From Acidobacteriota bacterium (GTDB lineage: Bacteria > Acidobacteriota > Thermoanaerobaculia > UBA5066), in the NCBI GenBank assembly GCA_029781975.1, contig JAKOVQ010000009.1, positions 124,001 to 188,000 of the forward strand: 64,000 nucleotides of DNA, in the 5' to 3' direction. This document shows, in pieces, positions 10,921 through 50,603 of this stretch (its first letter is position 1; each line of letters opens with the position of its first letter). Under the pieces are notes generated by a model. That model was not told where the DNA came from, did no database searches, and worked only from the letters and a program-made list of their open reading frames with translations. The position numbers and the translations under genes are program-made.

Positions 10921-12453
10921 ATGGGGCTTTTCGGAAAGATCACCAACCGGCTGGACGAGCTCCGCCGGGTCCTGACGAAGGACCCGGGATCGAGGCAGTT
11001 CCTCGCCCTCGCCGACGAGTACCGCAAGCACGGTCAGGTCGCCGAAGCGATCGAGACGCTGCAGAAGGGGCTCGCCGCGTCTCCCGGATCCGTGGCGGGC
11101 CACGTGGCCCTCGGCCGCCTCCTGGCGCAGGGGGGGCGGTTCGACGAGGCGGTCGAGTCTTTCGAGGCGGCCCTCCGCCTGGACCGGGAGAACCTCGTGG
11201 CGCTCCGCCAGGTCGCGGAGATCCACCTGAAGCGGGGCGACAAGGTCGAGGCGATCAAGAAGCTGAAGCTCTACCGGGGCCTCAGCCCCGGGGACCGCGA
11301 CGTCAACGACCTGATCGACCGCCTCGACGAGGAGCTCGGCTGGGGTGGCTCGAAGCCCGGCCGGGTGGCCGACGGCCGCCCGGCCCCGTTCCGGCCGCCG
11401 GCCGCTCCTCTCCCCTTCGCGGGGCCTCCGCCGTCCGTGCCGACCACCCCGGCCCCCCCCATCACGACGGCTCCCGTCCCGCCACCCGTGCCCGCTACCG
11501 GCTCGCCGGATGAGCTCCGGTCCGGTCCTGTCGCTGCCGTCCCGCCACCGCCCCCGTTCGGCCCCGCGACCACGGCGCCGATCCCCGTCCAGGCGGCGGG
11601 GGTTCCGAATGCCGAGCCGTTCCCCGTGCCAGGACCGAGAGCCGCAGCGGCCCCGGACGACGCTCCGACCGTCTCTCGCGAGCCCTTCGAGATCACGTAC
11701 GACGGTTCTTCGGGGGTGCCCTGGTCTTCGGCTTCGGCGCCCGCCCCCGCCCCGATCGAGGCGGAGGCGGCGACCGGGGGGGAAGAGCCGGCCCCGCTGG
11801 AAGCCGCCCCGGTTCCGGAGGGGAAGGAGGGATCGCTCCCCGCGGTCTCGAAGGCGCCGTCGCCTCCGCTGGTCTCCGAGACCCTCGCCGAGCTCTACGC
11901 GTCCCAGGGGCACCTCGCGGAGGCTCGGGACGCCTATCGAAGCCTCGCGGACCTCGCGGAGGACGAGCACCGGGCGGGCCACCTGAGGGAGAGGGCCGAC
12001 GAGCTCGACCGCGCCCTCCGGGCGGAGGGTCCCCCGGACCGGCTCCGCCGCTGGGCCGACCCGTTCGAGCGGGCCCGCGCCCCCGTCCGCACGGACCTCG
12101 ACACCGCCCTGGGGGAGCTGATGGATCGGGTCGAGGGGATCGACGCCGCCTCCGTCACCGACCTCGAGGGGTTCACCGTCGTCTACGCCGGAGACTCCGC
12201 CGCGACTCCGGCCCTCGAGGGCCTTTCGGCCGAGCTGACCGCGTTCTGGAAGAACGTCCGCAGGACCCGAGGGGACGTGGGCGAGGGAGCGCTCGATTGC
12301 CTCGTCGTCGCGGGGGAGCGCGGAACGGTCCTCGTCCAGGGGATCACGCCTGCCTACGCGTTGCTCCTGAGGGCGGCCTCCGGCAGGCCGCAGGGTCAGC
12401 TCCGCTTCGAAGCCCTCCGAACGGCGGAACGCCTCCGGCCGTCCCTCCTTTGA
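10921..12453 (+). CDS. TPR-repeat protein with C-terminal roadblock/LC7-like domain
   Basis: 510 residues. The N-terminal third (about 18-140) holds three to four TPR helices (ALADEYRKHGQVAEAIETL, ALGRLLAQGGRFDEAVESF). A Pro/Ala/Val-rich linker spans about 141-315, another TPR-like hairpin (LAELYASQGHLAEARDAY) lies near 320-350, and the last ~115 residues (DAASVTDLEGFTVVYAGD onwards) look like a roadblock/LC7 fold. Roadblock domains in bacteria scaffold small Ras-like GTPases and polarity complexes, so this may be an adaptor protein in motility or trafficking; that role is inferred. Next to the pil genes and upstream of accB. Confidence 0.8.
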   Translation: MGLFGKITNRLDELRRVLTKDPGSRQFLALADEYRKHGQVAEAIETLQKGLAASPGSVAGHVALGRLLAQGGRFDEAVESFEAALRLDRENLVALRQVAEIHLKRGDKVEAIKKLKLYRGLSPGDRDVNDLIDRLDEELGWGGSKPGRVADGRPAPFRPPAAPLPFAGPPPSVPTTPAPPITTAPVPPPVPATGSPDELRSGPVAAVPPPPPFGPATTAPIPVQAAGVPNAEPFPVPGPRAAAAPDDAPTVSREPFEITYDGSSGVPWSSASAPAPAPIEAEAATGGEEPAPLEAAPVPEGKEGSLPAVSKAPSPPLVSETLAELYASQGHLAEARDAYRSLADLAEDEHRAGHLRERADELDRALRAEGPPDRLRRWADPFERARAPVRTDLDTALGELMDRVEGIDAASVTDLEGFTVVYAGDSAATPALEGLSAELTAFWKNVRRTRGDVGEGALDCLVVAGERGTVLVQGITPAYALLLRAASGRPQGQLRFEALRTAERLRPSLL

Positions 12454-35530: not shown

Positions 35531-36109
35531 TCAACCGGCGCGAAGGGAGCTGGCGAGGGCGTCGCGGACCGCCGTCGACGCGGCCGTGGCACCGACGAGG
35601 CCGACGTTCAGGCTCGTCCCGTCCGAAAGGGGGACGGGGAAGCCGGTGAGGACGTCCCCGCCTACGTGCATCGCGAGGAACGGGAGGGAGGCGGCCTCCG
35701 GCGAGAGGAGGCGGGCCTGGTCGAGCGCCACCGCGAGGCGGGCGCTCCGGGCCTGCAGCTCCTCCTCGTCGGCAGGGCCGGCGCTCCCGACGATCCGCCC
35801 GTGGGCGTCCGCCAGGAAGGCCGTCCGGCACCCGCTGGCCTTCAGGAGCCACTCGAGGAGGGGACTCCAGTCCCTCGTCTCCGGGACGTCGGGCGCCATC
35901 CGCGGCGCGGGCGCGGGGACGGGCGGGACGGGGACTGCGGGAGAGGGGGCCACGACGCCGGGGCGAGCGGGCCCGGGCACCAGCCGGACGTAGCGCGACG
36001 CGTCGGGGGCCTCGACCGCGGGGCTCCCCCCGGCAGAGGGAGCGGACGCCGCGGGCGGTGCCAGCAGGCGGCTGAGGGCGCGGGCGAGCTCGAGGTCAGA
36101 GGAGCTCAC
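35531..36109 (-). CDS. Roadblock/LC7-domain protein
   Basis: 192 residues. The first ~85 are Pro/Ala/Val-rich and probably disordered. About 88-190 form a roadblock/LC7-like domain (LLEWLLKASGCRTAFLADAHGRIVG, then LLSPEAASLPFLAMHVGG). Such domains regulate small GTPases (MglB) or act as scaffolds. Its start overlaps the end of a ParA-type ATPase by 14 bases, so the two are co-translated and probably interact. No MglA-like GTPase is in the window. Convergent with ddl, only 12 bases apart. Confidence 0.75.
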   Translation of the reverse strand: MSSSDLELARALSRLLAPPAASAPSAGGSPAVEAPDASRYVRLVPGPARPGVVAPSPAVPVPPVPAPAPRMAPDVPETRDWSPLLEWLLKASGCRTAFLADAHGRIVGSAGPADEEELQARSARLAVALDQARLLSPEAASLPFLAMHVGGDVLTGFPVPLSDGTSLNVGLVGATAASTAVRDALASSLRAG

Positions 36110-36908
36110 GCTGCGGCCTCTCCTCGGCGGGAGCCTCCGCCGACATCCGCGCGACGAGGAGGTCGACCTCGGCGGCGAGCATCTCGAACCGGCGGGCCTC
36201 GGGGGAGACCGGTCCGGGGAGGAACGCGACGGGGAGGCCCTTCCGGCTCGCCTCGTGGAAGACGTCGACCCGGGGGACGACGCTCTCGAAGACGCCCGCG
36301 AAGCCGCTCCAGATCTCGCCGAGGACGGAGAGCGAGAACGGCTTCCCCTTCTCGACCATCGTCGGGAGGATCCCGAGGAGCTTCAGCCGCGGGTTCTCCC
36401 CGCGCTGGACGTGCTCGACGACGCGGAGCACCTGCGCCACGGACCGGAGCGCGAGCGGCTCGGCCGCGAACGGGAGGAGGACGAAGTCCGAGGCGGCGAG
36501 GGCGCCGCGGGTGACGGGCCCGAGGCCGGAGGGGGTGTCGAGGAGGACGAGGTCGAACGGGACTTCCACCTTCTCGAGGATCGACGCGAGCGCCCCCGGC
36601 GCGTGGATCGCCTCCTCGAACGCGCAGACGTCGATGGGGTCGAGGCGACCCCGCGGCAGGAGCGAGAGGCCGGGCAGCCGGGTGGCGCGAATCGCGTCCG
36701 GCGGGGCGGCGGCTCCGGCGAGGAGGTCCGCGAGGCCGGTGAGCGCCGTGTCGCCCCGCGCCAGCGCGAGGCCGATTCCCCCTTGCGGGTCGAGGTCCAC
36801 GAGGAGGACCTTCCGCCCCTTCTCGGCGAGCGCGACCGCGAGGTTGAGGGAGACCGTGGTCTTGCCGACCCCCCCCTTCTGGCTGGCGATTACGATGCGA
36901 CGCGCCAT
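36096..36908 (-). CDS. ParA/MinD-family ATPase (orphan)
   Basis: 270 residues. The deviant Walker A SQKGGVGKTTVSLNLA at the N-terminus, VLLVDLDPQGGIGLAL (A') and FDLVLLDTPSGLGPVT (Walker B) identify a ParA-type ATPase of the chromosomal-partitioning/positioning class. These proteins dimerise with ATP on DNA or membranes and position cargo such as chromosomes, pili or chemoreceptors. No ParB is next to it; instead the partner gene encodes a roadblock protein, suggesting placement of a surface or polarity complex. Confidence 0.9.
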   Translation of the reverse strand: MARRIVIASQKGGVGKTTVSLNLAVALAEKGRKVLLVDLDPQGGIGLALARGDTALTGLADLLAGAAAPPDAIRATRLPGLSLLPRGRLDPIDVCAFEEAIHAPGALASILEKVEVPFDLVLLDTPSGLGPVTRGALAASDFVLLPFAAEPLALRSVAQVLRVVEHVQRGENPRLKLLGILPTMVEKGKPFSLSVLGEIWSGFAGVFESVVPRVDVFHEASRKGLPVAFLPGPVSPEARRFEMLAAEVDLLVARMSAEAPAEERPQRELL

Positions 36909-37267
36909 CGCTTCCGTCCTTTCGCCGGCTCGCTGCCGGCCGTCGCGACGAGCCGTCGCCCTTGCGCGGCGGTCGACCTCACGACGATGCTGCCGGGGCC
37001 CCGGGTCGATCCCTGCTCGGGGGCGCTGGCGATCGGGAGGCCGTCCTCGGAGGTGACGGAGGCCGGCTCGACCTTCCGTGGTCCGGGGAGGAGGGCCCTC
37101 GGGACGCGGCCCGGGTCGTCGTCTCGTGCCATCTCAGGCCTCCCGGGGCCGCCCGTCGGCGGAAACGGCTCACGAAGCGCACCGCGGAGCACGCCCGCCG
37201 GGAGACGCTCGGGGAGGTCGAAGACGAGACGCCGCGCCTCGCTGAGACCGCCGTGGCTCGGGCCCAT
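36890..37267 (-). CDS. Small protein of unknown function upstream of parA-like gene
   Basis: 125 residues from ATG 37267, overlapping the ParA gene by 19 bases. The N-terminal part (SEARRLVFDLPERLPAGVLRG) could be an amphipathic helix; the rest is Pro/Gly/Arg-rich and basic at the C-terminus. Third-position G/C content looks like a coding frame, and the overlap suggests coupling, but I recognise no family, so the gene could be spurious. A TAGGCT hexamer lies 12 bases upstream on this strand. Confidence 0.45.
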   Translation of the reverse strand: MGPSHGGLSEARRLVFDLPERLPAGVLRGALREPFPPTGGPGRPEMARDDDPGRVPRALLPGPRKVEPASVTSEDGLPIASAPEQGSTRGPGSIVVRSTAAQGRRLVATAGSEPAKGRKRWRVAS

Positions 37268-37463: not shown

Positions 37464-39341
37464 ATGGAAGATGCGAAGCGGGCCCTCCGGTCGAGCGACG
37501 TCTTCGAGGGGCTGTCGGAGGCGGCGGTGGACCTCCTGGCTCCGGCCGCCTCCCGCCGCGAGCTCCCTCCGGGCGCCCTCCTCTTCAGGCAGGGGACGCC
37601 GCGGCAGGCGGTCTACCTCCTCGCCGACGGTCAGGTCGAGCTCACCCGCGAGCAGGGGGGCGTCACGAGCCGGCTGGTCCTCCTGGGGCCCGGGGAGACC
37701 GTCGGGGTCGGCTCGCTCCTCCACACCTCCGACCACACCACGTCGGCGCGGGCGGTCTCGCACGTGTCGCTCTGGGAGCTCCCGCGGGAGGCGGTCCGGG
37801 AGCGGCTGCGCGAGGACGCCGGGGCCGCCCTGGACGTCCTCTCCCGCGTGGCCCTCGTGATGAGCCGGCACCTCCAGTACCAGAGCCCGCGCGCGGTGGG
37901 GCGCGAGAAGGCCTACGGCTCGGGGGCGTCGCGCCGGGAGCACGACCTCCTCGGCGACCGCGACGTCCCGGCCGACGCCCTCTACGGGGTCCAGACGCTG
38001 CGGGCCGTGGAGAACTTCGCGATCACCGGCATCCCGCTCGCGCACTTCCCCGCGCTCGTCCGCGCCCTGGCGATGGTGAAGCTCGCGGCGGCCCGTGCGA
38101 ACGCCCGCCTCGGGCTCCTGTCGCCGGCCGTCGCCGCGGCGATCGAGCAGGCCTCGCGGGAGGTCATCGACGGGCACCACCACGGCCACTTCGTCGTCGA
38201 CGTGGTGCAGGGCGGGGCCGGCACGTCGACCAACATGAACGCCAACGAGGTGCTGGCGAACCGCTCGCTCGAGATCCTCGGCCGCCCGCGCGGCGACTAC
38301 GGCGCGTGCCACCCGAACAACCACGTCAACCTCTCCCAGTCGACGAACGACGTCTACCCGACGGCGATCCGGATCGCGGCGGTCCTCTCGCTCCGGCCGC
38401 TCCTGTCCGCCCTCGAGAAGCTCCGCTCCGCGCTGGTCGAGAAGGGGGAGGAGTTCCACGACGTCCTGAAGATGGGGCGGACCCAGCTCCAGGACGCCGT
38501 CCCGATGACGCTCGGCCAGGAGTTCGGAGCCTACGCGGTCACGGTGGGGGAGGACGTCGCGCGGCTGCGGGAGACGTCGCGGCTCCTCCTCGAGGTCAAC
38601 ATGGGGGGGACCGCGATCGGGACGGGGATCAACGCCGACCCCCGCTACCCCCAGATCGTCCTCGAGGAGCTCCGGGCCGTCACGGGGCTCGACCTCCTCC
38701 TCGCCGAGAACCTCGTCGAGGCGACGCCCGACACCGGCGCCTTCGTGATGTTCTCGGGAGTTCTCAAGCGCGTGGCGGTGAAGCTCTCGAAGATCTGCAA
38801 CGACCTCAGGCTCCTCTCGTCGGGGCCGCGCTGCGGGCTCTCCGAGATCAACCTCCCGCCGATGCAGCCGGGGTCGAGCATCATGCCGGGGAAGGTCAAC
38901 CCGGTGATCCCCGAGGTCGTGAACCAGGTCGCCTTCCAGGTCGTCGGCAACGACCTCGCCATCACGATGGCGTCGGAGGCGGGGCAGCTCCAGCTCAACG
39001 TGATGGAGCCGATCATCGCCTTCAACCTCTTCCAGTCGATCGAGATGCTCTCGGCGGCCGTGGAGACCCTGACGCTCCGGTGCGTCCGCGGGATCACGGC
39101 GAACCGCGAGAGGAGCCGCGAGATGGTCGAGCGCTCCATCGGGATCGTCACCGCCGTCGTCCCGGCCCTCGGGTACGAGCGCGCGAGCGAGGTCGCCAAG
39201 GAGGCGCTGGCCTCCGGGAGGCCGGTGAGGGAGCTCATCCTCGAGAAGGGGTACCTCACCGCCGGGCAGCTCGACGACCTCCTGTCGCTGGAGGCGATGA
39301 CGCGCCCCCGTCCGCTGGCCCTCGGCGACCGGACGGTGTAG
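37464..39341 (+). CDS. aspA: Aspartate ammonia-lyase with N-terminal cyclic-nucleotide-binding-like domain
   Basis: 625 residues. About 13-135 form a CRP-like beta-roll ([52 protein letters not shown]). The phosphate-binding Arg of cAMP-binding domains appears to be His, so the ligand may not be cAMP. About 155-612 is a complete aspartase: [22 protein letters not shown], the catalytic loop [11 protein letters not shown] at 470-480, [12 protein letters not shown] and [12 protein letters not shown], more like AspA than fumarase. It deaminates aspartate to fumarate. GGGAGG precedes ATG 37464. The fusion suggests allosteric control or regulated assembly. Confidence 0.9.
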
Positions 39342-48470: not shown

Positions 48471-50603
48471 TCAGCTCCTCCGGCGGAGGACGTGGGCGAG
48501 GGACGCGGGAGGGACCGGCGGGCAGAGCCAGCGCCCCTGGAACGCCGCGCAGCCCGTGGCCCGGGCGGTCTCGAGCTGGGCCTCCGTCGCGACGCCTTCC
48601 GCCACCACCGGCATTCCGAGGACCCGACCGACGGAGACGACCGCCGAGAGGGGACGAGGGTCGTCGGGCGCTTCGGCCACGAGGTCGGGGTGGACCTTCA
48701 GGGCCGAGAAGGGGAGGTGCGCGAGCCGCGGCAGGCTGATGGCGCTGGAGCCCACGTCGTCCACCGCGAGGCGGATCCCGAGGCGGACGAGGTCGTCGAG
48801 GCCCGCCTCCAGCCCCGGGTCGTCCGCCATGGCGGTGGGCTCTGCGACCTCGAGCTGGAGCCGCCCCGCCGCCAGCCCCGAGGCCTGGAGCGCCTCCGAC
48901 GCCGACCGGGCCAGGCCCCTGTCGCGCAGCTGCCGCTCCGAGAGGTTCACGCAGAGGGTGATGGCCCCCGGCCACCCGGCGGCCTCGGCGCACGCGGTCC
49001 GAAGGGCCCAGCGGCCGATCCCGACGATCGCGCCCGATTCCTCGGCCAGGGGCGCGAAGTCCGCGGGGAGGAGGAGGCCGAGGCGGGGATGACGCCACCT
49101 GACGAGAGCCTCGACGGCCTCGACCGCGCCGTCCGCGGCGCGGAAGACGGGCTGGTAGTAGAGGAGGAGCTCCCCCCGCTCCACCGCGCCCGACAGCTCG
49201 GTCTCCAGGGCGAGGAGCGCGGCCGTCCGCGCGCTCATCTCGGCGTCGAAGATCTCGAAGCGGCCGCGCCCCGCATTCTTGGCCCGGTAGAGGGCGAGGT
49301 CGGCGTCGCGGATCATCTCGTCCGGCCCGGCGTACCCGGTGGACGAGAAGGCGATGCCGATCGACGTGCCGGTGCTCGTCTCGACTCCCTCGACGACCGC
49401 CGGCTGCGCCAGGTCGACCCGGACGCGCTCGGCCACGCGGATCGCCTCCGCCGGGTCGTTGAGGTCGTCGAGGAGGATGCCGAACTCGTCCCCCCCGATC
49501 CTCCCGATCCGGTCGCCCGGCCGCACGCTCCGCTCCAGCTGCGCCGCGACCGCGGCCAGGACCCGGTCCCCGTGCGGGTGGCCGTATCGGTCGTTCACGT
49601 CCTTGAAGTGGTCGAGGTCGAGGAAGAGGAGGGCGGCCAGGTGCCGCGAGCGGCGGCGGCCCCGCTCGACCGAGCGCCGGAGCTCGTCGAGGAACGCGCG
49701 CCGGTTCGGCAGGCCGGTGAGCTCGTCGTGGAGAGCCTGGTGGCGGAACCGCTCCTCGCTCCTCCTCAGGGCCTCGGCTGCCAGCTCCTGCTCGGTCACG
49801 TCCTGGCCGGCGCCGACGAGCCGGTCCGGCTCGTCGGGCGACTCGGCCGCGAGGGGGCGGGCGAAGACGCGGACGCTCCGCACCGCGCCGCCGGCCCTCA
49901 CCAGCCGGAACGTCGCGGACGCGCTCTCGCCCCGGCGGAGCGCTCCCTGCATCCCCGCGAGGAGCTCCTCCCGGTCCTCGGGATGGACGAACGCGAGCCA
50001 CCCTCCCCGGGCGTCGCGCTCCTCGCGCGGCATCCCGAGGAGGCGGTCGATCGAGTCGGTGACCCACTCCCCCTCGAGCGAGCCGTCGGTCCCGGCCCGG
50101 AGGGAGAAGGCGAAGTCGGAGATCACCTCCGAGATGGCCTGCCACAGGCGTCGCGCCTCGCGGAGGGCCGTCTCGGCCCGCCTGCCGGCCGTGACGTCGC
50201 GCACGTGGACGGCCAGCCGGCGGACCTCGCCGTCCCTTCCCGGAAGGGGGACGATCCGGTGGAGCTCGACGCGGGCCCCGTCGCTCGCCTCGTACTCCAC
50301 CGGCTCGCCCCACGCGATCGCCTCGCCGGCGCGCTCGGCCAGCGACGCGGCGGCGCCGGGCACGAACGACGAGGGGAGCGCGCGCCCCTCGAGCGCGTCG
50401 GGATGGCTCCCGACCCGCTCGGCCGCGGCCGCGTTCGCGACGACGACCCTTCCGGAGACGTCCAGGAGGACCGCCGGCTCCTCGGAGGCGTCGAGGAGGG
50501 CCCGGGCGTCGGCGCGCCCGGCGAGGGGACGCTTCTCGGAGGGAGAGGCCGTGGTGGTCGGCCCCGGCGCCGCCGGCTCATCGGGTGAGCGCTCGGTCGT
50601 CAT
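48471..50603 (-). CDS. PAS-PAS-GGDEF-EAL cyclic-di-GMP signalling protein
   Basis: 710 residues without membrane helices. A PAS domain (about 35-140) and a second (about 150-270) precede a GGDEF domain with intact [11 protein letters not shown] near 370 and a correctly spaced RPGD inhibitory site. The EAL domain has [18 protein letters not shown] and a conserved FQG, but DDFG is DDVG, KID is KVH and EGVE is EGVA. Cyclase activity looks intact; phosphodiesterase activity is uncertain. Type IV pili are a common c-di-GMP output, so a link to the pil operon is conceivable. Confidence 0.92.

Follow-up and report, generated by a model that had tools for sequence, protein, structure and literature searches.

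A ParA/MinD-type ATPase co-encoded with a roadblock-fold partner: a conserved two-gene unit with a proposed role in placing signalling complexes

Introduction

ParA/MinD-type ATPases that work together with a partner protein are a known kind of system, and the partner is not always ParB. In PpfA/TlpT, an ATPase of this type and its non-ParB partner position a chemosensory complex. Roadblock domains, as far as they are known, form dimers.

The N-terminal peptides of ParA/MinD partners are dealt with in three sources (PMC10241942, PMC12462528, PMC13170346), and those of ParB, MinE and PomX (the last two sources) stimulate the ATPase. The activating peptides known so far carry a positive charge. 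Many ParA/MinD ATPases are nonetheless called orphans in one of them (PMC10241942), their partners being unidentified. Moreover, MglB homologues encoded near PATAN genes have already been described (PMC4316618).

Here, we analyze an ATPase locus in a stretch of 64,000 nucleotides from an Acidobacteriota genome (assembly GCA_029781975.1, contig JAKOVQ010000009.1, positions 124,001 to 188,000), hereafter the window. The original prediction for this locus was an orphan ParA ATPase whose gene overlaps those of a roadblock/LC7 protein and of a small basic protein, without ParB or an MglA GTPase; the three proteins were proposed to form a positioning module, possibly for type IV pili.

Results and Discussion

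The ATPase and Its Partner

The ATPase gene (36096..36908, minus strand) encodes a protein of 270 aa, which belongs to the ParA/MinD family according to its matches to Pfam AAA_31 (1e-33) and, among PDB chains, to Soj (1wcv, 1.3e-36); its place in the clade of paired ATPases is described below. The deviant Walker A motif with its signature lysine is kept, with K11, G12, G13, G15, K16, T17 and T18 invariant in 13 aligned sequences, and the catalytic-type aspartates Asp40 and Asp124 show no variation in the same number of sequences. The protein is 68% identical to its relative at locus L031 and 66% identical to that at L032, and the closest named relative among the matches listed comes from a Thermoanaerobaculia MAG of the Acidobacteriota (L047). 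Its reading frame scores 0.76 bits per codon, compared to a training mean of 0.72 (the ATPase gene being itself a training gene). By eye, no MinD-type basic amphipathic membrane helix could be found in the aligned C-terminal tails of the ATPases. When the window ATPase is aligned to Soj, it lacks the second arginine of the PRNVR stretch, and as we take this arginine of Soj to be one that binds DNA, nucleoid binding is unsure.

A ParABS partition system was considered for this ATPase and rejected: as originally noted, no ParB is co-encoded, the downstream gene being that of the roadblock protein, and the ParB of the same genome adjoins another ParA on a different contig (L044). On the other side, a divergent gene (37464-39341, plus strand) encodes a fumarase/aspartase-type lyase that carries an N-terminal cyclic-nucleotide-binding domain in the same protein.

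The partner gene (35531..36109, minus strand) starts with a GTG codon and overlaps the end of the ATPase gene by 14 nt (36096..36109), as had been predicted, which suggests that translation of the two genes is coupled. Its product of 192 aa is predicted to consist of an N-terminal helix, a Pro/Ala-rich linker and a roadblock/LC7 domain. When searched alone, the window partner had no match in Pfam (Robl_LC7 included, E 1) or in NCBIfam, and nothing was found for the partner family in NCBIfam either. A profile of 23 family members, on the other hand, placed MglB and LAMTOR5, both roadblock proteins, at the top among PDB chains (best E 0.00098), and 6 of these 23 members matched Robl_LC7 singly at E 0.1 (best 1.5e-6). 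In addition, AlphaFold2 modelled the window partner (mean pLDDT 84) with a helix at residues 3-16, a long, disordered linker and, at residues 82-191 (35537..35866, minus strand), helices and strands arranged as in a roadblock domain, a-bb-a-bbb-a. The best Foldseek match of this model is MglB (6h5b, 2.9e-6), and all 50 matches listed are roadblock domains or complexes containing them. The same fold, likewise with roadblock matches in Foldseek, is predicted for a partner from the second branch of the family (L060). When compared directly to four canonical roadblock proteins, the partner profile gave a weak match (hhalign probability of 9%), which speaks against a close kinship to the canonical proteins, not against the fold. 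Overall, the partner is, by its predicted structure, a protein with an MglB-like roadblock fold, in line with the roadblock/LC7 assignment made at first.

Ahead of the roadblock domain, the best conserved part of the partner is the N-terminal helix (residues 3-16; 36062..36103, minus strand), with a mean of 1.49 bits as compared to 0.73 bits in the linker. The stretch occurs in two forms, 'S-D-L-x-x-A-x-x-L-S-x-x-L' and 'W-I-D-x-x-E-L', and by analogy with the N-terminal peptides of known ParA/MinD partners it probably docks on the ATPase dimer. At least one lysine or arginine is present in 46 of 47 stretches; the median net charge of -1 counts against docking, as activating peptides elsewhere are positively charged, and so does the L032 partner, in which the helix motif is not visible. 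At one locus (L059, 2011-2877), a similar N-terminal stretch precedes a GAF domain instead of a roadblock domain. Moreover, in a natural fusion of ATPase and roadblock domain (L108, the one fused protein inspected fully), the motif was not seen between the two parts, as would be expected if the helix served only the docking of separate proteins.

Conservation of the Pair

Follow-up of the pair covered 13 of 60 genomes. Among 13 chosen related loci (L031-L043), which come from 12 of the other genomes searched, a roadblock-like ORF starts near the ATPase stop in all 12 loci that have sequence past the ATPase. A wider scan of GTDB yielded at least 590 stretches, the best 80 of which were kept for locus analysis; in 46 of these 80, the partner is adjacent, starting between -118 and +26 nt relative to the ATPase stop. 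A search of all six frames of the best 80 loci with the partner HMM gave 51 matches, 47 of them beginning 600-1100 nt past the ATPase start. Within this set, the pair is found in Acidobacteriota, Myxococcota, Desulfuromonadales and Verrucomicrobiota, and in a few MAGs labelled otherwise, while the 34 partnerless loci include some contig ends (L065, L070), the fused L108 and L059 with its GAF partner. A phylum survey with the partner profile returned at least 14 of 297 genomes, a lower bound given that at most 10 candidates were scored per genome.

A tree was built from 90 ATPases, 54 of them paired; 51 of the latter fall within a single branch of 55 rows with 98% support, and the chromosomal ParA of the window's own genome lies outside it. 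The other four rows of that branch are L059, L065 (ending at its contig end), L082 and L097; no partner was recognised downstream of the last two, which we count against the two-gene reading. The paired ATPases of L040, L103 and L106 lie outside the branch, where they group with L108 and L119. At L108, ATPase and roadblock domain form a single protein of 392 aa. Its C-terminal part and the free-standing partner at L103 share 37% identity over 144 columns. The full-length fusion is present as one open frame in 7 of 37 genomes around L108 (its own included), with 39-100% identity, and all seven fused proteins match the roadblock HMM. Altogether, the genes for the ATPase and its roadblock partner stand together, have been inherited together within one clade and are fused in a side lineage, and on the strength of adjacency, clade and recurrent fusion we regard them as a conserved unit. 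The pair is made accessible by this fused form and by hosts in culture, among them Rubritalea marina DSM 17716 (L081).

The ORF Upstream of the ATPase

The small basic protein of the original prediction corresponds to an ORF of 125 aa (36890..37267, minus strand), which does overlap the ATPase start by 19 nt. From Met46 onwards (residues 46-87; 37007..37132, minus strand), this ORF aligns to canonical roadblock proteins over their front half, and it lacks the back half of the domain. Aligned to a canonical roadblock protein of genome G001 (C25), it scores 106, a value reached in none of 2000 shuffles, and ranks first of the 304 ORFs of the window, with the runner-up at 79. In codon usage it scores -0.03 bits per codon, as compared to 0.43 or more in every training gene. 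Matches to the ORF occur in 9 of 60 genomes, its own included (E up to 0.01); the two that were examined (G001 C25 and G003 C13) lie in frame within stretches shared with roadblock genes, and a roadblock profile match was not found in the matching region of G044 C83 (L153). In the closest relative, L031 (G003 C10), an intact roadblock gene directly precedes the ATPase, in the same position as the 125-aa ORF, and this, together with the likeness to the front half of the domain, indicates that the ORF is probably a decayed copy. Decay of a canonical roadblock gene is thus the simplest reading of the sequence, although the ORF may alternatively encode a short derived protein.

An independent, small basic third component was also considered and rejected, given the roadblock front half, the low codon score and the finding that, at the related loci, no ORF of the same kind was found ahead of the ATPase gene. 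The trio is, therefore, not supported, and what remains of the proposed three-gene module is its conserved two-gene core: the order of ATPase and partner holds in 12 of 12 loci, and that of the small ORF does not.

A second roadblock protein had been noted in the same region, and this is probably the C-terminal part of a TPR protein (10921-12453, plus strand) encoded about 24 kb away and some 4 kb beyond the pil genes; this part aligns over its length with canonical roadblock proteins. Its match to Robl_LC7 (18.4 bits, E 0.0018) is under the 23-bit cut-off. The HMM for canonical roadblock proteins misses both this protein and the 125-aa ORF, and alignment of single sequences detects both.

Genomic Neighbourhood

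Outside Verrucomicrobiota, the pair often stands amid genes for histidine kinases, canonical roadblock proteins, PATAN/response-regulator proteins, ODP diiron proteins, protoglobins, HNOB, FIST and V4R-like proteins. The fullest cluster (G003 C13, L151) reads roadblock, ODP, histidine kinase, REC-PATAN, ATPase, partner and REC. Within the best 80 loci, PATAN, ODP, protoglobin, HNOB, FIST, canonical roadblock or V4R-like neighbours occur at 22 of 46 pair loci and at 1 of the 34 others (p 4e-6), the neighbour HMMs and single sequences, mostly named by Pfam, having been taken from the pair loci themselves, a choice that biases the counts towards such an association. Once four duplicate loci are removed, the counts are 18 of 42 and 1 of 34 (p 4e-5), and the sole such locus among the 34 is the fused L108. 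PATAN genes adjoin the pair at 18 of the 46 pair loci. Signalling neighbours of the counted kinds are absent at 24 of 46 pair loci, 23 of them from Verrucomicrobiota, so signalling complexes are not a general cargo.

In relatives, roadblock and ODP genes also stand side by side with or without the kinase, REC-PATAN and ATPase genes (L151:5886-10977, L152:3849-6173, L150:4519-5710); this cluster of oxygen sensor and roadblock protein recurs, and it may also occur where the ATPase is lacking. In Polyangia and one Acidobacteriota MAG (L060:9282-11133, L066:9388-11203, L074:9254-11164), two genes follow the pair: one for a conserved protein of 182-216 aa without a Pfam match, and one for a protein of about 420 aa, which carries an HCHHY/HCHHF motif and matches V4R weakly. 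At four Verrucomicrobiota pair loci (L077, L089, L093, L120), the adjoining gene is a divergent one of 352-583 aa, with a signal peptide predicted by eye.

In the window itself, profile searches gave no PATAN, ODP or globin match, and no sensor gene adjoins the pair. A genome-wide search for ODP found no strong match, with two proteins over the cut-off and the best at 5e-11, as compared to 2e-71 in G020. Elsewhere in the window, a PAS-GGDEF-EAL protein is encoded at 48471-50603 (minus strand).

Proposed Function and Alternatives

The reading that we favour, with a probability of roughly 55%, is a two-gene module in which a ParA/MinD-type ATPase and a dedicated roadblock partner, docking through its N-terminal helix, position or gate signalling complexes. 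For a ParA/MinD ATPase whose partner carries such a helix, positioning is the role that demands the fewest assumptions. In the proposed mechanism, the ATPase would dimerize on ATP and bind a cell matrix, the nucleoid being likelier than the membrane; the helix of the partner would dock on this dimer and stimulate ATP hydrolysis, as the N-terminal peptides of ParB, MinE and PomX do, and the roadblock domain would connect the ATPase to its cargo. Judging from the neighbouring genes, this cargo would in many relatives be a cytoplasmic signalling complex of histidine kinase, canonical roadblock protein, ODP, globin or HNOB sensor and PATAN response regulator, which the ATPase would place or hold, and release on hydrolysis.

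More tentatively, and with the odds against it, we put forward a broader idea in which the ParA/MinD ATPase replaces the Ras-like GTPase known from MglA/MglB and the conservons, and roadblock proteins connect it to sensors of gas or redox state (ODP, protoglobin, HNOB), in a widespread and undescribed arrangement. If this were true, sensing of oxygen or nitric oxide would set where, or whether, the output complex of response regulator and PATAN proteins sits, and the natural fusion of ATPase and roadblock domain would be the minimal form.

The strongest competitor to the positioning module, although in our view an unlikely one, is a nucleotide switch, in which the ATPase would stand in for the Ras-like GTPase of MglA/MglB and of the Streptomyces conservons. 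The roadblock dimer would then act on the ATPase through its fold, as MglB does on MglA, with the output running via response-regulator or PATAN proteins. The gene order at L151 closely resembles that of the conservons, with their histidine kinase, roadblock protein and GTPase, as outlined in PMC4316618, where roadblock proteins are also held to regulate NTPases (Koonin and Aravind, cited therein). Moreover, when the genome's own MglA-like protein was used as the query, none of the best 80 loci (of at least 590) had a match nearby, in agreement with the absence of MglA noted at the outset. However, the partner has a separate conserved helix on a linker, in the manner of the partners of positioning ATPases, and the exchange of the roadblock domain for GAF at L059 suggests that the roadblock fold is dispensable for contact with the ATPase.

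It is improbable that the window pair is a mere remnant of a lost signalling cluster, with little or no role in its host. The decayed look of the ORF before the ATPase would fit such a loss, and so would the missing PATAN, ODP and globin matches in the window and the lack of a high-scoring ODP in the genome; nevertheless, the ATPase has codon usage normal for the window, an intact Walker A motif and the identity to L031 and L032 given above, and the partner has an uninterrupted reading frame and a plausible predicted fold.

Least probable of all is the type IV pilus role first proposed: even though pil genes lie within the window and PATAN regulators, whose target in Synechocystis is held to be the pilus motor PilB1 (PMC7690835), provide a weak and indirect link through the PATAN genes beside the pair in relatives, the positions of pilM in 12 pair-bearing genomes show no conserved linkage (35 kb from the pair in the window's own genome, G000, 65 kb in G003, on another contig in the other 10), and its presence in all 12, as compared to a pair followed up in 13 of 60 genomes, gives no distributional sign of a dedicated pilus function.

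Comparison with Known Systems

Searches of the open-licence PMC literature yielded no title or abstract on a ParA/MinD ATPase with a roadblock partner, and no report of the partner family, the fusion or the sensory clusters was found in these searches. Gene order and fusion allow a partner family for orphan ATPases to be named in at least four phyla, with a docking helix that can be tested. If the signalling link holds, it would join ParA positioning, roadblock/small-GTPase polarity and ODP/globin gas sensing, which have so far been studied apart.

With ParABS and Soj-Spo0J, the pair shares the ATPase family and an N-terminal helix on the partner; the ParB of the window's own genome starts with a stretch bearing LGRGLSALI, which resembles ALSRLL of the window partner. 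However, ParB is a DNA-binding CTPase whereas the window partner is a roadblock protein, and the paired ATPases form a separate clade. In ParC/ParP and PomZ/PomX, a ParA/MinD ATPase and a non-ParB partner likewise place chemosensory or division complexes (PMC5706961, PMC13170346), but their partners, and that of PpfA/TlpT, are not known to be roadblock proteins. MglA/MglB, in turn, also combines a roadblock protein with a P-loop NTPase, yet the NTPase of the window pair is a ParA/MinD ATPase, and the MglA-like GTPase of this genome adjoins a roadblock gene elsewhere (L155). Lastly, some relatives share with the Streptomyces conservons, as these are outlined in PMC4316618, the plan of histidine kinase, roadblock protein and NTPase. 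A conservon unites histidine kinase, roadblock protein, CvnC and Ras-like GTPase, whereas no such GTPase was found near the best 80 loci and relatives add ODP, globin, HNOB and PATAN proteins to that plan.
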